A stretch of 11,497 bases of DNA. Source: Solirubrobacteraceae bacterium (GTDB taxonomy: Bacteria > Actinomycetota > Thermoleophilia > Solirubrobacterales > Solirubrobacteraceae). Positions 1,799 through 11,497 of this stretch are shown here, piece by piece (position 1 is the first letter of the stretch; each line of letters begins with the position of its first letter). The position numbers and the translations under genes were made by a program. Below the pieces are notes generated by a model. The model saw only the letters and a program-made list of their open reading frames with translations, was not told the origin of the DNA and made no database searches. The DNA lies in the NCBI GenBank assembly GCA_030043235.1, contig JASHYF010000423.1, positions 1 to 11,497 on the forward strand, read 5' to 3'.

Positions 1799-1933
1799 TC
1801 GTCCCGGCCCCTCCGCACGACAGTCCACCCTGACCCGAGGAGACAATACCTTACTTCCACTGCGCCGGACGCACGAGACACAACGGCTGCCAACAGCCAT
1901 ACGTCCCCGTCACCTCGGTCCATCTCGGCGAAA

Positions 1934-1961
1934 GAAATTAGCGAAACGTTATGCTAATTTC
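1934..1961. promoter_or_regulatory. Palindrome upstream of the two-ATPase operon (left copy)
   Basis: Perfect 9-bp arms GAAATTAGC (1934-1942) and GCTAATTTC (1953-1961) are separated by 10 bases. The site ends 8 bp before the ATG at 1970. It sits in an AT-rich patch of an otherwise GC-rich region. TATGCT at 1950-1955 could act as a -10 box. That would put transcription start close to the ATG, with a leaderless or very short leader; this is inference. Aligned without gaps, 1935-1961 matches 4210-4236 at 20 of 27 positions. It may be an operator, an end of a mobile cassette, or both. Confidence 0.7.
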
Positions 1962-1969
1962 GATAGGAA

Positions 1970-3160
1970 ATGGTGCTGACGAACGCCCCGCTGCTCGGTA
2001 CCCGACACGACGCGCAGCTCTTCGTGGATCGCACGGCAGAGCTCGGAGAGCTGCTGCGCAACGTCGATAAGGGTTGGAACACGCTCGTGCTCGGAGCGGC
2101 CGGCATCGGCAAGACATCGCTGCTGAATCGTTTCGCCGCCAACCTAGAGAACCGTGCCGAAGCCGAGACTGCGCCTCGGCTGCTCCCGTTCCTGGTCGCC
2201 GGCCAGCCCGTAAGCGCTGTCGACTTCTTCCAGACGCTTGCCGGCCAGATGGTCGATCGCCTCGAAGGGGAGGGGGTCGTGGCGAAGGTCATGCAGACTG
2301 CGCAGCAGGCTCTCGAGAAGCTGCGGTCAGCCGGCTTGTCGGGGTTCATCTCCACGCCCAACGATCAGAACGACACCACGGCGGAGCTCTTGCGGACGCT
2401 GAGACTCGTTGGTTCGGTGCTGGACGACCTCCGTGGAGCTGGCCTCGACGCTGTAATCCTGGTGGACGAACTCGCAAGCAGTGAGATCGCGCAGACGATC
2501 TTTGGACGCATGCGCGATGAGCTGTGGACATTGCGAGCAACGTGGATCGTGGCCGGCCGCTCGAGCGATTCGGAGATCTTGCTGATGCCACCGGCGGACA
2601 CCTTCTTCGAGCGCAGGCTCGACCTGGGGCCGTTGATGCACGCCGACGCGATGGCGCTGTTGCAAGCCCGGCTTGAGCGCGACGCCGTGGTCGACCTCTC
2701 CGATGAGGAGATCGACCAGCTGGCGCGACTTGGCCGTGGACATCCGCTGGCCCTCATCACAGCGCTCCGAGCCGTCGCCAGCGGGACACCGACACGAGAG
2801 CTGATCGAACGCAGCCAACAAGTTGCGGCTTCGCTGGAGAGGTTGAGCCCACCCGCACAGCGCCTGGCACGCGCGATCCTCAACCAGGCGCAACCAGCGC
2901 GCGCGACCGATCAGACCCTGCTGAGGCAAATGGGTTGGACGTCGAGTCGCCTGCGCCAAGTGCTTCACGAGCTGGCAAGAGCAGGAGTCGTCGATGTCGT
3001 GGATGCCGAGACGGACGGGCCCGGTCGCCCAAGCAAGGCCTACGTACCGTCCATCACACGGCTCGGCGGCTTCGGCGATGCACCAGCGGCCACCACGATG
3101 CCGCCTGGGGAGAGCGACCATGCTGGCGAGGGCGCCGACGACGCGACCGATGGTTCGTGA
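1970..3160 (+). CDS. STAND/AAA-like ATPase with C-terminal winged-helix domain
   Basis: This 396-residue protein has no signal peptide and is probably cytoplasmic. Walker A is GAAGIGKTS (42-50, K48). Walker B is AVILVDEL (161-168, D166 and E167). A sensor-1-like strand WIVAGRSS lies at 192-199. GHPLAL (257-262) resembles the GxP motif of STAND/NACHT-type and Orc-type ATPases. Residues about 311-360 look like a winged helix (LLRQMGWTSSRLRQVLHEL, then a beta wing with GPGRPSKAY). The last 30 residues are a low-complexity acidic tail. The ATG at 1970 has no properly spaced Shine-Dalgarno sequence, since AGGA touches the start, so a leaderless message is possible. The stop overlaps the next gene's ATG by one base, so the two are an operon. 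The family role is ATP-dependent switching or DNA binding. The specific function is unknown; replication initiation, transposition support, regulation and phage defence all remain possible. Confidence 0.85.
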   Translation: MVLTNAPLLGTRHDAQLFVDRTAELGELLRNVDKGWNTLVLGAAGIGKTSLLNRFAANLENRAEAETAPRLLPFLVAGQPVSAVDFFQTLAGQMVDRLEGEGVVAKVMQTAQQALEKLRSAGLSGFISTPNDQNDTTAELLRTLRLVGSVLDDLRGAGLDAVILVDELASSEIAQTIFGRMRDELWTLRATWIVAGRSSDSEILLMPPADTFFERRLDLGPLMHADAMALLQARLERDAVVDLSDEEIDQLARLGRGHPLALITALRAVASGTPTRELIERSQQVAASLERLSPPAQRLARAILNQAQPARATDQTLLRQMGWTSSRLRQVLHELARAGVVDVVDAETDGPGRPSKAYVPSITRLGGFGDAPAATTMPPGESDHAGEGADDATDGS

Positions 3161-4212
3161 TGAGCCGCCAACTCGTCCAAAAGATGTGGGAACAGCATGT
3201 CTTCGACTCGGTCCTCCTGGAGGAGGACATGAGCGAGTACCACGTACCGTTCGACCGCATCACTGGGAAGACCCAGACCGAGGCGCGGCTGCGAGACGCG
3301 GTCGCCAAGTTCGAGCGCGTCTCACTCACCGGCGTCCCAGGCTGCGGCAAGACCAGCGTCGCGCGATACTCGCTCGAACCCGCCCCAGCGCGGATCGCGC
3401 CCATCTGGGTGCCGGTGGCGTACAAGGACGAGGGCGTCACGACGAGCCCCAAGGCGTTTGCCCAGTATCTCGTGGATGTCATCAGCGCCGACGCCGCCGC
3501 CGCGCAACGTATCCCCAAAAAGGATCGCGAAGCGATTCTCGCCCATGCGACGAGCGACATCAACCTGCCGACGGTCGCCCGGAGGAATGCGGGCGGGCTG
3601 AAGCTCATGCGGTGGTTGATCGAGGCAGACGTGGCACGGGACGTGACGCGGACGATCGAAGGAGGCAAGCTCCCGCGCTCGGAGCAGGAGATCTTCGGCT
3701 TGGCTGATGGCGTGCTCGGGGCGATTCGCGCATACAACCTCAACCCTGTGCTCGTTATGGACGACACCGATCGCTTTGTCGGCCGCGGCAACCCGGATCG
3801 CGTGATCCCCGCCTTCTTCGGCGAGGTACTCCGAGCGGTGGTCGAGAGGCTGCACGCGGGCATCGTGGTGGCCGCGCATCCGTTGTATCTCGAACGGAAG
3901 GACTACAGACGGCTCAGCTCTGGGCTGATAGAGCAGCACATTCGTATTCCCAAGATCCCGCACCTCGATGGCCTGGCCGCGATCCTCACCGCGCGGGTGC
4001 GGTTTGCCAGCACACGACGGACGGCGAATGACGCCTTCGCCGAGGGCGCCCTGGAGGAGCTATTCGACATATACAGCGGTCTGAATGAGAAGTCGATCCG
4101 CGCCGTTCTGGCAACCGCCCACGCTGCACTGGCGCGGGCCCAAGAAGCGCTGGCCCCGGCGATCTCTGCCGATCACGTCAAGGCGGGCGCGGACGATGCG
4201 CTCTTGACGTAA
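3160..4212 (+). CDS. Orc/Cdc6-like AAA+ ATPase, second gene of the pair
   Basis: The protein has 350 residues if it starts at the ATG at 3160, which overlaps the upstream stop in TGATG and suggests translational coupling. A second ATG at 3229 has a strong GGAGGAGG just upstream and would give 327 residues; both are plausible. Walker A is GVPGCGKTS (58-66, K64). Walker B is VLVMDDTDRF (197-206), a DDxDR form also seen in KAP-type NTPases. A sensor-1-like strand IVVAAHPLYLE lies at 235-245. The C-terminal lid (GLNEKSIRAVLATAHAALAR, then ISADHVKAGADDAL) resembles the helical lid of Orc/Cdc6-like AAA+ proteins. No nuclease, protease or membrane segment is visible. The partner ATPase upstream suggests a hetero-complex or a two-step ATP switch. 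A longer in-frame reading from 2935 would run through the upstream gene and is not credible. Function unknown. Confidence 0.85.
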   Translation: MSRQLVQKMWEQHVFDSVLLEEDMSEYHVPFDRITGKTQTEARLRDAVAKFERVSLTGVPGCGKTSVARYSLEPAPARIAPIWVPVAYKDEGVTTSPKAFAQYLVDVISADAAAAQRIPKKDREAILAHATSDINLPTVARRNAGGLKLMRWLIEADVARDVTRTIEGGKLPRSEQEIFGLADGVLGAIRAYNLNPVLVMDDTDRFVGRGNPDRVIPAFFGEVLRAVVERLHAGIVVAAHPLYLERKDYRRLSSGLIEQHIRIPKIPHLDGLAAILTARVRFASTRRTANDAFAEGALEELFDIYSGLNEKSIRAVLATAHAALARAQEALAPAISADHVKAGADDALLT

Positions 4213-4235
4213 TTCGCGAAACATTTCGCAAATTA
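4210..4235. repeat. Palindrome at the end of the two-ATPase operon (right copy)
   Basis: Twelve-base arms TAATTCGCGAAA (4210-4221) and TTTCGCAAATTA (4224-4235) pair with one mismatch around a 2-base centre. The first three bases are the stop codon of the second ATPase gene. Positions 4210-4236 match 1935-1961 at 20 of 27 positions in the same orientation, sharing GCGAAACRTT and flanking AATT blocks. It could form an RNA hairpin, but it lacks a run of T after the stem, so it is not a clear terminator. With the left copy it brackets the pair as a direct repeat of a palindrome. Confidence 0.75.
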
Positions 4236-4322
4236 CCCGAGACAGCCGGACGAGCCCGCGATGAGATCCGGTCGTTCTGCGGGAGAGAGCCCAGAGACAA
4301 CAAGCTTCAGTCAGTCGAACAG

Positions 4323-4396
4323 TCGGGGCGGCGGGATTTGAACCCACGACCTTTCGCTCCCAAAGCGAATGCGCTACCAGGCTGCGCCACGCCCCG
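4323..4396 (-). tRNA. tRNA-Pro(TGG)
   Basis: A full cloverleaf of 74 bases reads leftward. The acceptor stem CGGGGCG pairs with CGCCCCG and the discriminator is A. The D arm is GCGC/GCGC. The anticodon stem TTCGC/GCGAA holds loop TTTGGGA, so the anticodon is TGG followed by G37. The T arm is GTGGG-TTCAAAT-CCCGC. The C1-G72 pair and A73 fit bacterial tRNA-Pro. No CCA is encoded. The 3' end faces the two-ATPase cassette, an orientation in which islands often insert. I found no repeated tRNA 3' end within the window to prove it. Confidence 0.96.
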
Positions 4397-4525
4397 CGGT
4401 GCGTTCAGTCTAATGCCACTCCGAACGCAGGCCGTCCATCTATCCACGCCCGGAGCCGTGCCCGAAACCGCGCCTCGCATACGCCGACGGCGAGCGGAGC
4501 TGCACAGTGATGCCTCGTCTCGGTC

Positions 4526-4560
4526 GCGCTCGAGCCCGCGGAAGAGGCCGCGGGGAGCGC
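4526..4560 (+). other. GC-rich hairpin in front of the DUF1015 gene
   Basis: CCCGCGG (4535-4541) pairs perfectly with CCGCGGG (4548-4554) around AAGAGG. Outside this, GCGCTC (4526-4531) pairs with GAGCGC (4555-4560), with GAG as a 3-base bulge on the left side. That makes 13 base pairs in all. It ends 22 bases before the ATG at 4583. No T run follows, so an intrinsic terminator is unlikely. It could be leader structure, a protein site, or chance in GC-rich DNA. The rest of 4397-4582 holds no gene that I can support. Confidence 0.4.
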
Positions 4561-4582
4561 CCTGCTAGCGTCCGCCACCGCC

Positions 4583-5887
4583 ATGGCCGACGTCCAACCC
4601 CTGCGCGCCCTGCGCTACGACCCCGCGGTGGTTGGCCCGCTCGCGAACGTCGTCGCGCCGCCGTACGACGTGATCGACGCCGCCCAGCGCGCGGAGCTGC
4701 TCGCGCGCTCTCCCTTCAACGTGGTGGCCGTGGACCTCCCCCGGGCCGAGCCCGGCGGGACCGGCGGCCAAGGTGCGCAGGACCCCTACGCGGCGGCGGG
4801 TGAGCTGTTCGACAGCTGGCAGGCGCAGGGCGCGCTCGTGCGCGACGACGCTCCCGCCGTGTGGGCGCACACCCAGGACTACACCGGCCCGGACGGACGG
4901 GCGCGCACGCGCCGCGGCTTCTTCTGCCGCGTGCGCATCGAGGACTACGGCCCGGGACGCGTGCGCCCGCACGAGCGAACGCACCCCGGCCCCAAGGAGG
5001 ACCGGCTGCGCCTCACTCGCGCCACGCGCGCCAACACCTCGCCGATCTTCTCCCTGTACTCGGACCCCCGGCAGGCCGCGTGGCAGGCGCTCGCGCCTGC
5101 CACCGGGCGGCCGCCGTGGGCGGAGATCACCGACTCCGACGGCACCGTGCACCGGCTGTGGCGCGTGGGCGACGCCGGCGCGATCGCCGCCGTGCACGCG
5201 GCCGCGCGCGACGCGGAGCTGCTGATCGCAGACGGCCACCACCGCTACGAGACGATGCACGCATACGCGCAGGAGATCGGCGGAGATGGCGATCACCGCT
5301 ACATCCTCATGTGCCTCGTCGCGCTCGAGGACCCCGGCCTCACGGTGTTCCCCACGCACCGCCTGATCGGCGGCCTCGACGACGCGCGCCGCCAAGCGCT
5401 CGCGCAGGCGCTCGAGCGCGACTTCGACGTCGTGGAGGTGCCGGTCGGGGAGATCGCGCCCCCACCAGGCCGGGGGCGGCTGCAGCTCGGCTACATCGAC
5501 GGGCGCGAGCAGCGCCCGCTGCGCCTGACGCTGAAGGACCAGGCGATCGCGGACGCCGCGCTGCCCGGGCACTCGGCGGCCTACCGGCAGCTGGACACCG
5601 GCGTGCTGGAGACACTGCTCCTGAAGAACGCCCTCGGCTACAGCGACGAGGACGTCGCGCACTTCAACGGCCTGTTCTACGCGCGCGACACGGCGGAGGC
5701 GCTCGCGATGGTGCGCTCGGGCGAGTACGACGCGGCCTTCCTGATGCGGCCCACCCCCGTCGAGCAGGTGCGCGACGTGGCGGCCGCGGGCGAGAACATG
5801 CCGCCAAAGTCGACGTTTTTCTACCCCAAGCTGCTCACCGGGCTGCTGTTCAACCCGCTTGGCGATCCGGGGCGGTCGGTATCATGA
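4583..5887 (+). CDS. DUF1015 family protein
   Basis: The protein has 434 residues, within the usual range of this family. Conserved DUF1015 blocks appear in order: VVAPPYDVI (23-31), HERTHPGPKEDRL (130-142), NTSPIFSLY (151-159), IADGHHRYETMHAY (215-228), PTHRLIGG (257-264), and the C-terminal block ENMPPKSTFFYPKL (404-417). The His, Arg, Lys and Asp-rich motifs suggest an enzyme active site or a phosphate-binding site, but I know of no assigned reaction. There is no signal peptide or membrane helix. The ATG at 4583 has no clear Shine-Dalgarno sequence; it is chosen because the family N-terminus (VQPLRALRYDP) follows it directly. The OsmC-like gene begins 37 bases downstream on the same strand, so the two may be co-transcribed. 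Confidence 0.92.
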   Translation: MADVQPLRALRYDPAVVGPLANVVAPPYDVIDAAQRAELLARSPFNVVAVDLPRAEPGGTGGQGAQDPYAAAGELFDSWQAQGALVRDDAPAVWAHTQDYTGPDGRARTRRGFFCRVRIEDYGPGRVRPHERTHPGPKEDRLRLTRATRANTSPIFSLYSDPRQAAWQALAPATGRPPWAEITDSDGTVHRLWRVGDAGAIAAVHAAARDAELLIADGHHRYETMHAYAQEIGGDGDHRYILMCLVALEDPGLTVFPTHRLIGGLDDARRQALAQALERDFDVVEVPVGEIAPPPGRGRLQLGYIDGREQRPLRLTLKDQAIADAALPGHSAAYRQLDTGVLETLLLKNALGYSDEDVAHFNGLFYARDTAEALAMVRSGEYDAAFLMRPTPVEQVRDVAAAGENMPPKSTFFYPKLLTGLLFNPLGDPGRSVS

Positions 5888-5924: not shown

Positions 5925-6359
5925 ATGACATACACGCCTGGGCTCACAAGGATGAAGGCCTCCGTGCGACGCGACGGCGCCACGTTCAGGCACACGGTGC
6001 AGGTTCGCGACCACCAGCTCACGGTGGACGAGCCGGTGGAGGCGGGTGGCGATGACGTAGGACCGGATCCACAGGAGCTGCTGGCCGTGAGCCTCGCTTC
6101 GTGCACGGCGATCACGATGGAGATGTACGCCGCGCGCAAGGGCTGGGACATCGGCCACGTGGAGGTGGACGCCGAGTACAGCCCGGCCGAGCGGGGCTGT
6201 CCGACGAAGTTCCAGCTCGTGTTGCGCCTGCCTGACGACCTCCCCGAGGAGCAGGTGGAGCGACTGCGTGTGATCGCCGCCAAGTGCCCCGTTCACCGCG
6301 CCCTGGATGGCGAGGTCATGTTCCAGGAGCGCATTGAGCGCGTTCACCTGGCCGCCTGA
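5925..6359 (+). CDS. OsmC/Ohr family peroxidase
   Basis: The ATG at 5925 is chosen because GAGGGG lies about 7 bases upstream; the longer in-frame start at 5859 would overlap the DUF1015 gene. The product has 144 residues, typical of the family. The two redox cysteines are in SLASCTAITMEMYAARKG (C60) and AAKCPVHRAL (C121). They sit in the positions used by OsmC/Ohr proteins to reduce organic hydroperoxides. PQELLAVSLASC carries the conserved Glu near the first Cys, and R21 in ATFRH is a candidate active-site Arg. A third cysteine (C92) is probably not catalytic. The family acts in the cytoplasm with thiol reductants (lipoyl or thioredoxin-type). It sits between DUF1015 and NUDIX genes on the same strand. 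OsmC and Ohr subtypes cannot be separated reliably here, so no symbol is given. Confidence 0.92.
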   Translation: MTYTPGLTRMKASVRRDGATFRHTVQVRDHQLTVDEPVEAGGDDVGPDPQELLAVSLASCTAITMEMYAARKGWDIGHVEVDAEYSPAERGCPTKFQLVLRLPDDLPEEQVERLRVIAAKCPVHRALDGEVMFQERIERVHLAA

Positions 6360-7107
6360 GTCCCCCCCACCCGCCGGCGTAGATCGGCCCGGCGCGAGCA
6401 CGTGCGAGCCGGGCACGCACGAGCGAGTCCCGGGCACGCACGAGCGAGTCCCGGGCACGCACGAGCGAGTCCCGGGCACGCGGGAGGAGATCCCGGACGC
6501 GGCCCACGAGCAGGTCGCGAGCGAGCGCGATCGCCTCGCGAGCGCGGGCGAGCAGATTCCCGCGGCGGTGCTCGTCCCCCTGTTCATCGCCAGCGGGCGC
6601 AGCGCATCCTCCCCGCAGGGGGAGCCCCACGTGGTCCTCACCCGGCGACGCGCCGGCCTGCGCCGCCACGCCGGCGAGATCTCCTTCCCGGGCGGTCGCC
6701 GGGACGCCGAGGACGCCGACCTGATGGAGACCGCGCTGCGCGAGGCCGAAGAGGAGATCGGCCTTTCGCGCGCCCAGGTCACCCTGCTGGGCGAGCTGCC
6801 CGCGACGTCCACGTTCGCCACCCGCTACACGATCCACCCCTACGTAGCCGAAATCCCCGCCGGCGTGGCCTGGCGCCTATCACCCAAGGAGGTAGACGCC
6901 GTCCTGGAGCTGCCCCTCGGTGAGGTCCGCGCGAGCGCCACGAAAGCGCCGATCGAACGCCGCGGCATCACCTTCCAGACCGACGCGTACGTGCTCGGCG
7001 AGCACGTCATCTGGGGCGCCACCGCCCGCATCCTCGCACACCTCTTCGAGCGCCTCCGGGCGCCCACCGCGGACGCCCAGCTGGCGTTGGGCAGCGGCCC
7101 GCCCTGA
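6307..7107 (+). CDS. NUDIX hydrolase, CoA pyrophosphatase-like
   Basis: The Nudix box is complete: HAGEISFPGGRRDAED (121-136) leads to ALREAEEEIGL (143-153) with the metal-binding glutamates E149 and E150. The LLTxRSxxLRxHxGxxxFPGG-like stretch, here VVLTRRRAGLRRHAGEISF, is the CoA-pyrophosphatase (UPF0035/NudL-like) signature. The predicted reaction is cleavage of CoA and related nucleotides at the diphosphate, giving 3',5'-ADP and phosphopantetheine. The domain begins near AAVLVPLF (86-93). The start is uncertain. The ATG at 6307 overlaps the OsmC gene by 53 bases and lacks a ribosome site. A TTG at 6334 has AGGAG four bases upstream and would give 257 residues. No other usable start lies before the domain. 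The N-terminus carries three PGTHERV repeats. The stop abuts the stop of the opposing peroxiredoxin gene. Confidence 0.88.
   Translation: MARSCSRSALSAFTWPPESPPPAGVDRPGASTCEPGTHERVPGTHERVPGTHERVPGTREEIPDAAHEQVASERDRLASAGEQIPAAVLVPLFIASGRSASSPQGEPHVVLTRRRAGLRRHAGEISFPGGRRDAEDADLMETALREAEEEIGLSRAQVTLLGELPATSTFATRYTIHPYVAEIPAGVAWRLSPKEVDAVLELPLGEVRASATKAPIERRGITFQTDAYVLGEHVIWGATARILAHLFERLRAPTADAQLALGSGPP
6409..6480. repeat. Perfect 21-bp tandem repeat at the NUDIX N-terminus
   Basis: Three identical 21-bp units (6409-6429, 6430-6450, 6451-6471) are followed by the first 9 bases of a fourth (6472-6480). In the NUDIX frame they encode PGTHERV three times. The region lies after the OsmC stop and before the conserved NUDIX domain. 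It is either a variable N-terminal extension or an untranslated spacer if translation starts elsewhere. Perfect identity suggests recent slipped-strand expansion. Confidence 0.92.
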
Positions 7108-10424: not shown

Positions 10425-10444
10425 GGATAGCGATGGTTATACAG
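10425..10444. promoter_or_regulatory. Putative operator, copy 1, upstream of the acyl-CoA dehydrogenase
   Basis: The imperfect palindrome GGATAGC-GATG-GTTATAC is followed by AG. It matches the second copy at 18 of 20 positions and lies in an AT-richer patch of the 240-bp gap between glyS and the acyl-CoA dehydrogenase gene. Its spacing and symmetry suggest binding by a dimeric repressor such as a TetR-type regulator. The regulator itself is not in the window. Confidence 0.6.
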
Positions 10445-10499: not shown

Positions 10500-10519
10500 G
10501 TATAGCGATGGCTATACAG
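10500..10519. promoter_or_regulatory. Putative operator, copy 2, upstream of the acyl-CoA dehydrogenase
   Basis: A perfect 7-bp inverted repeat, GTATAGC (10500-10506) and GCTATAC (10511-10517), surrounds GATG and is followed by AG. It starts exactly 75 bases after copy 1. The four-base centre is also conserved between copies, which suggests the whole site is recognised. TATACA at 10513-10518 could double as a -10 box, about 85 bases before the ATG at 10602. No intrinsic terminator for glyS is visible in the rest of the gap. Confidence 0.65.
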
Positions 10520-10601: not shown

Positions 10602-11497
10602 ATGGACTTCGACCTGACGGACGAGCAGCGCCTGATCAAGGAGACCGCGCGCGAGTTCGCGGACAAGGAGATAGTGCTGCAGTCGCGCGAAAACGCGCGC
10701 AACCACCACTTCGACCTGGAGATGGTGGGGAAGGTCGCCAAGCAGGGGTACCTCGGCGCGATCGTGCCCGAGGAGTACGGCGGCGCGGGCCTGGACTATC
10801 TGTCTTACGGCCTGGTCGTCGAGGAGATCGGCCGCGCGGACTCCTCCATCCGCACGGTGATCTCCGTGCAGACCTCGCTCGTGTGCTCCGGGATCCTCAA
10901 GTTCGGCACGGAGGAGCAGAAGCACCACTACCTGCCGAAGCTGTGCTCGGGCGAGTGGCTCGGGTGCTTCGGGCTGACCGAGCCCGACGTGGGCTCGGAC
11001 GCCGCCAACCAGAAAACGCGCGCGCGCAAGACGGGCGACGGGTGGGTGATCAACGGCTCGAAGATGTGGATCTCGATGGGCGACTACGCGAAGGTCGCGC
11101 TGATCTTCGCGCAGACCGATCCCGAGCTCGGCCACAAGGGAATCGCGTGCTTCCTCGTGGACGCCGAGCAGCCCGGCTACCATGCGCAGCCGATCGAGCA
11201 CAAGATGGGCCTGCACGCCTCCGACACGGCCTCGATGTCCCTGGAAGACGTGGAGGCCTCGGACGAGCAGATGCTCGGCGGCGTGGGCGACGGGTTCAAA
11301 ATCGCGATGTCCAACCTCGACTCCGGGCGCTACTCGGTGGCGTGCGGCGCGGTCGGCATCTGCCAGGGCTGCGTGGACGAGTCGGTGAAGTACGCGCAGG
11401 AGCGCGAACAGTTCGGGCGCCCGATCGCGAGCTTCCAGCTGGTGCAGGCGATGATCGCGGACATGGCGCTCAAAACGGACGCCTCGCGCATGCTCGC
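10602..11497 (+). CDS. Acyl-CoA dehydrogenase, C-terminus cut by window edge
   Basis: The frame is open for 298 codons to the right edge, so the gene is partial; family members have about 380 residues. The ATG at 10602 has GGAG 10 bases upstream. The N-terminal helical domain begins MDFDLTDEQRLIKETAREFA. VPEEYGGAGLDYL (55-67) is typical. The FAD-binding signature CFGLTEPDVGSD (122-133) and NGSKMWIS (151-158) are complete. EREQFGRPIASFQ (267-279) marks the C-terminal helical domain. The catalytic glutamate, normally near residue 370, lies beyond the window. The enzyme is an FAD-dependent alpha,beta-dehydrogenase of acyl-CoA in fatty-acid or amino-acid degradation, passing electrons to ETF. Glutaryl-CoA-type or short-chain specificity cannot be decided from this part. 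The duplicated palindrome upstream suggests specific repression. Confidence 0.94.
   Translation, partial: MDFDLTDEQRLIKETAREFADKEIVLQSRENARNHHFDLEMVGKVAKQGYLGAIVPEEYGGAGLDYLSYGLVVEEIGRADSSIRTVISVQTSLVCSGILKFGTEEQKHHYLPKLCSGEWLGCFGLTEPDVGSDAANQKTRARKTGDGWVINGSKMWISMGDYAKVALIFAQTDPELGHKGIACFLVDAEQPGYHAQPIEHKMGLHASDTASMSLEDVEASDEQMLGGVGDGFKIAMSNLDSGRYSVACGAVGICQGCVDESVKYAQEREQFGRPIASFQLVQAMIADMALKTDASRML

Follow-up and report, generated by a model that had tools for sequence, protein, structure and literature searches.

Why should two overlapping ATPase genes lie exactly between two copies of one palindrome? The question is raised by an 11,497-nucleotide stretch of DNA from a Solirubrobacteraceae bacterium (contig JASHYF010000423.1), referred to here as the window. 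A sequence-only reading had described a 27-base sequence that recurs with 20 of 27 identical bases and is palindromic in both copies. We confirmed the recurrence, and a 28-base-pair (bp) frame gave 21 of 28 identical bases. The coordinates also bore out the bracketing: copy 1 ends 8 bp before the ATG of gene A, copy 2 overlaps the TAA stop of gene B (4210-4212), and only genes A and B, whose stop and start share one base (TGATG), lie between them. We consider it probable that the locus is an autoregulated ORC/Cdc6-like ATPase operon, whose leaderless promoter carries the primary operator and whose far end carries an auxiliary one. The features concerned are as follows.

1934-1961: upstream palindrome (copy 1), 28 bp, 12 of 14 pairs; palindrome score reached by 0/300 shuffles
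1955-1960, plus strand: -10-like TAATTT inside the right arm of copy 1
1970-3160, plus strand: gene A, ORC/Cdc6-like AAA+ ATPase with a C-terminal winged helix; Pfam AAA_22 above cut-off, structural model nearest to archaeal Orc1/Cdc6
2837-3049, plus strand: winged helix of A, approximately residues 290-360; model with helices at 315-321 and 325-337 and a two-strand wing
3160-4212, plus strand: gene B, ORC-like AAA+ ATPase lacking a winged helix; as a model, aligns with the AAA+ and lid portion of Orc1/Cdc6
4209-4236: downstream palindrome (copy 2), 12 of 14 pairs; predicted auxiliary operator without the -10-like hexamer

The likeness of copies 1 and 2 is not a chance event. Shuffled copy 1 queries never equalled the score of copy 2, either over the whole window (0/100) or in the region around the end of B (0/300). 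A degenerate two-site consensus, allowing up to two mismatches, gave four strand-matches in the window, all at copies 1 and 2, and none in 200 shuffles. With up to three mismatches, the two copies were the sole places matched in 2.67 Mb of the genome of the window (~59% complete); the palindrome is not scattered across unrelated genes, a pattern that the sequence-only reading had named as adverse to its proposal. An exact search of wider genome contigs with the palindrome consensus returned one match, in Candidatus Uabimicrobium amorphum, which we took as chance. Relative to copy 1, TAATTT has become AAATTA in copy 2, and one pair is altered on both sides with its pairing kept.

A palindrome ahead of A is characteristic of the family. 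Twenty A starts were compared, with start codons set mainly from N-terminal conservation. L102 (A without an in-frame start; no operator counted) and L013, L017/L132, L018 and L019 (fragments or weak matches) were left out of the counts. L010, L011 and L012 represent parts of L108, L107 and L109, and each such locus entered the counts once; the closest protein relatives (such as P0001, P0002, P0003, P0030 and P0031, with 75-94% identity in A or B) stand outside these DNA-level counts. The motif TAnnnT occurred at -17 to -11 in all 20 starts, compared with 3.6 expected from shuffles and 17 of 176 control genes called in the same loci with a simple gene caller. A palindrome centred between -22 and -12.5 scored above 95% of shuffles at 16/20 starts, and a palindrome score of at least 7 was reached at 15 starts and at 10 of the 176 controls (Fisher 4e-12). 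The 46 bp before A had a GC content of at most 50% in 16 of the 20 loci. The position of the -10-like element so close to the start codon suggests that the A-B transcript is leaderless; an AGGA one base before the ATG in the window is too close for a usual ribosome-binding site. What was found is thus a symmetric site over a predicted promoter, in a position conserved across the family, as would characterize an autoregulated operon.

The sequence of the operator also varied with the winged helix of A. Similarity between operators correlated with winged-helix identity after removal of AAA identity (partial Mantel r 0.25, p 0.0065, a guide only), and the converse correlation with AAA identity, after removal of the winged helix, was weaker (r 0.12, p 0.09). 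All eight loci with the recognition helix SRQR carried GCTA/TAGC in the operator and none carried GTAAG/CTTAC. Where the helix read S or T, R, a residue other than Q, and R, GTAAG/CTTAC was present in six of eight loci and GCTA/TAGC in two; the remaining four of the 20 loci, including the window, fell outside both classes. From these patterns we infer that the winged helix of A reads the palindrome. The earlier proposal that the sites are bound by a protein of the operon itself gains support in the same way, from the family-wide upstream palindrome, its cover of the -10-like element, its lineage-specific sequence and its tracking of the winged helix.

The downstream side was compared in the 17 loci where B is intact and the sequence continues past it. 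Three of the 20 upstream rows drop out here: B is interrupted in L103 and was not found in L106, and in L107 the contig stops at B. A downstream copy of the locus's own operator was present in two, the window and L029. The latter belongs to G056, from another genus of the family; its A is 27% identical, its palindrome has a different sequence, and its second copy begins 6 bp past B. The L029 two-copy consensus, with up to three mismatches, had no match in G056 (~88% complete) outside these two copies, and none in seven other genomes. The recurrence of the bracketing in a second lineage, with a different palindrome, favours the sequence-only reading. Second copies upstream were found in L103, L107 and L108, bringing the loci with a second copy of their own operator to five of 20. 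The -10-like hexamer was absent from the second copy in all four gapless alignments (window, L029, L103 and L108; L107 was left out), and L029, like the window, had one pair altered on both sides between copies with the pairing kept. Since the second copies keep their symmetry and lose the -10 element, they suggest an auxiliary operator, perhaps for looping, and the downstream palindrome of the window would be one of these.

The proposed mechanism is as follows. The upstream palindrome would be an operator that covers the -10 element of the A-B promoter, whose transcript probably has its 5' end at the ATG or immediately before it. Protein A, as a symmetric dimer or in a larger assembly, would bind this operator via its winged helix and repress its own promoter, with B probably acting as the partner ATPase of A. 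The downstream palindrome would serve as the auxiliary operator, its -10 lost and its symmetry kept, and A, alone or together with B, could occupy both sites and thereby draw the operon into a loop of ~2.3 kb, making repression tighter. Autoregulated operons of the lac type combine a primary operator over the promoter with auxiliary operators. The A-B operon resembles them in that one operator covers the promoter and another, with no promoter of its own, lies downstream. It differs in that its second site is ~2.3 kb away and exactly at the operon end, in that the presumed repressor is itself an AAA+ ATPase, and in that the looping is predicted here.

Several observations weigh against this mechanism. 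The absence of a downstream copy from 15 of the 17 loci indicates that it is not needed for the system generally. The palindrome was not significant at four of the 20 starts (L004, L023, L103 and L109), and a two-hexamer sigma-70 scan of 1850-4450 found no promoter. The start codons and the -17 to -11 range were set by us, the range after viewing the sequences. The recognition-helix classes were likewise picked after alignment and the loci share ancestry, so that the p values, including that for the classes (p 0.007), are guides only. Copy 2 also folds well as RNA, at -14.3 kcal/mol on the plus strand (z -4.6) and -16.5 kcal/mol on the minus strand (z -3.6), with 0/200 shuffles as good on either. 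It may therefore have a hairpin role in the window, and lying between convergent genes it could be a two-way terminator separating B from a tRNA-Pro gene, its likeness to the operator being a coincidence or by-product. We regard this explanation as unlikely: no T run follows copy 2, a terminator scan did not include it, a terminator need not share 21 of 28 bases with the operator, and the equivalent in L029 forms a weak hairpin (z -1.3; equalled by 19 of 200 shuffles). That copy 2 is the remnant operator of a deleted, tandem second A-B copy appears extremely doubtful. More than one pair per genome does occur (C130 and C58 of G000; two A genes on one G076 contig), as do broken or partial copies (L103, L106 and L132), but the bases after copy 2 are, by eye, unlike the start of A, and 12 of 14 pairs maintained despite seven differences, one of them two-sided, would be unexpected in a decaying remnant.

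The palindromes had also been proposed to mark a self-contained cassette, as its recombination or transposition ends. The recombinase acting on them would be the cassette's own or a borrowed one. The exact bracketing in the window and L029, the patchy distribution (for example, some match in 16 of 232 genomes of the order) and neighbours that differ between loci, as the sequence-only reading had anticipated, are compatible with such ends. The proposal nevertheless went unsupported, and we now hold it to be highly improbable. Conserved copies at both edges would have been expected of a cassette, and most homologous pairs lack the downstream one; the sites enclose the two ATPase genes and nothing more; the upstream palindrome covers a -10-like element, and its spacing from the start codon is constant; and homology between L022 and L023 extends beyond the upstream palindrome into the next gene. 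Archaeal orc1/cdc6 genes adjoin replication origins, and the two sites could accordingly be initiator sites, at which the ORC-like pair would serve a small origin of replication, or a maintenance site, belonging to it. The closest folds to both proteins are those of archaeal Orc1/Cdc6, among them a heterodimer on origin DNA, and the DNA before A is AT-rich. Promoters are AT-rich too, however; a single site rather than an array is the common state, no recurring helicase or primase gene was seen by eye beside the pair in the gene lists, and against the orc1/cdc6 NCBIfam model TIGR02928 A and B scored 10.6 and 12.1 bits, far under the cut-off of 181.3. This role is very improbable in our estimation. 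The ORC-like two-subunit ATPase might instead recognize its own palindromes at both edges of its genes and join them. The gene pair would then act as a DNA unit that marks itself, resembling an initiator or partition module more than a plain repressed operon; bracketing was seen in two lineages with different palindromes, and we rate this reading as distinctly unlikely. The autoregulated operon is the explanation we prefer.

A and B form a conserved, uncharacterised ATPase pair. An AAA+ domain followed by a winged helix, a feature of Orc1/Cdc6 initiators, is present in A. The Walker A GK[ST] motif was retained in 29 of 29 B rows, and its lysine was gone in 8 of 26 A rows. PF24389 (ORC-CDC6-like) was matched by 8 of 23 A relatives at E <=1e-3 (best 3.9e-7), while the A of the window was unlisted even at E <=1. 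No STAND NTPase model scored above its cut-off, and a TniB/TnsC-type transposition ATPase was rejected, as the combination of a score above the TniB cut-off with a transposase gene alongside was not found. Against PADLOC, in which protein rows alone were compared, matches were weak: mad8 in 16 of 23 A rows (best 2.3e-7), and five families with one B row each of 26. The likeness to archaeal Orc1/Cdc6 initiators (PDB 2V1U, 2QBY and 1W5S) lies in the AAA+ domain and winged helix of A, the AAA+ and lid of B, the two subunits, and palindromic or symmetric DNA sites adjoining the genes. Here, in contrast, the sequence match is far below the family model, B has no winged helix, some A proteins have lost the Walker A lysine, and the A-B loci, known from sequence and models, show no sign of an origin array. 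Bacterial conflict systems also hold ORC/Cdc6-like AAA+ proteins, namely BrxC and BrxD of BREX, some with winged helices, according to one report (PMC12839542). A and B share with these a bacterial ORC/Cdc6-like AAA+ character and, in some cases, a winged helix. They differ from BREX in being two short proteins that stand alone, with no recurring methyltransferase, PglZ, helicase or nuclease recognized beside them by eye, most neighbours being unscanned against a library. As to the cellular role of the ATPases, conflict (defence) or element maintenance would be our guess.

The pair is distributed patchily. A search with B matched 16 of 232 genomes from the order of the window at E <=1e-3, and at E <=1e-6 it matched 15 of 399 sampled genomes of the class and 8 of 396 sampled genomes of the phylum, several of these matches being short or weak. 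Named relatives include a protein from a Baekduia metagenome-assembled genome (MAG) and one from a Solirubrobacteraceae MAG. The window's own genome, G000, carries pairs on contigs C130 and C58; that on C58 (L025, 1568-3609) is diverged and has its own palindrome at the A start and none downstream. Broken or partial copies, in which B is interrupted (L103, G110:C57), was not found (L106, G076:C232) or is present in part only (L132, G226:C15), suggest high turnover. Of 72,556 plasmid records, two yielded an A-B pair, both of them entries for one linear plasmid of Rhodococcus fascians, pFiD188. In the pFiD188 region L158, 4223-9020, the A-B pair comes directly after a toxin-antitoxin pair of the Phd/RelE type and a gene with a RES domain, which is accompanied by a small partner gene. 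The 50,697 phage records gave no match to the B of the window or the plasmid-borne B, and no relative was confirmed in viral contigs searched with alignments A1 and A4. A contig-set scan with alignment A1 also confirmed no relative; we judged it insensitive because the genome search did find pairs. The literature search turned up no title or abstract opening that mentioned a gene pair of this kind, a weak test given that most subscription papers lie outside its coverage. Neighbouring genes vary between loci by eye, the exception being L022 and L023, both of which are flanked on one side by the same large gene, which we took to encode an Lhr-like helicase.

The A-B pair moves, and transfer RNA (tRNA) genes may mark where it does so. 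In the window, the relevant gene is the following.

4322-4396, minus strand: tRNA-Pro (TGG), called by ARAGORN; its 3' end faces the operon, a possible junction of an acquired island

This gene lies 110 bp beyond B, and in L024 a tRNA-Thr gene lies 151 bp beyond B. Such a tRNA gene within 250 bp was found for 2 of 20 pairs and for 1 of 190 neighbouring genes (p 0.024). Third-position GC is lower on the operon side of the tRNA gene, at 0.77-0.79 compared with 0.84-0.96 beyond it in the window and 0.73-0.82 compared with 0.83-0.93 in L024. Near position 1500 on the minus strand of L102, ~230 bp from A, we saw by eye a tRNA 3' half without its 5' half, where ARAGORN calls none; it was excluded from the comparison and is possibly a leftover attachment site. 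In the genus, the DUF1015 gene that follows tRNA-Pro in the window was present in 22 of 24 genomes, and tRNA-Pro adjoined it in 20 of 23 scanned loci, including that of the window, the other three being partial gene matches. The tRNA-Pro and DUF1015 genes occupy 4322-5887 in the window and recur in loci L032-L050 and L086-L101. By eye, the DNA 3' of tRNA-Pro differs between these loci, and the place looks like an integration hot spot. A phage-type integrase gene, just above the Pfam cut-off, lies 3' of tRNA-Pro in G091 (L100, 3112-4293, minus strand).

No clean empty site, which had been sought as a sign of mobility, was found in close relatives, either at the genus tRNA-Pro/DUF1015 loci or beside the helicase gene of L022. 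At the genus loci the other flank did not align with that of the window. Beside the helicase gene, four of five relatives without the pair at that position aligned to the upstream side over 39-118 bp only, and L161 gave no match. The tRNA genes beside some pairs are nevertheless better junction candidates for a mobile unit than the palindromes, and islands inserted at tRNA genes are the likelier explanation of the patchiness, a view limited by the fact that only a minority of pairs adjoin a tRNA gene.

Other features of the window were also recorded. The divergent gene at 2-1900 encodes a subtilase, and IetAS reportedly consists of an AAA ATPase plus a subtilase; a link was rejected, as no recurrence of the subtilase was seen by eye in the gene lists of the loci, most neighbours being unscanned against Pfam. 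Two similar sites, at 10425-10444 and 10501-10516, were seen by eye before an acyl-CoA dehydrogenase-like gene at 10602, the second being a perfect inverted repeat (TATAGC, four bases, GCTATA); they are possible operators of an unrelated regulator. Short direct repeats occur at 1589-1665, inside the subtilase gene, and at 6388-6471, around the 5' portion of the gene that spans 6307-7107.

The A-B pair thus occurs patchily in the searched genomes of the order, class and phylum of the window and on one Rhodococcus plasmid. Its operators can be read directly and change together with the winged helix, and they offer a compact natural set for studying how ORC-type winged helices choose DNA. With the A-B locus one could also ask directly whether an AAA+ assembly of ORC type can bridge two sites flanking its own genes.

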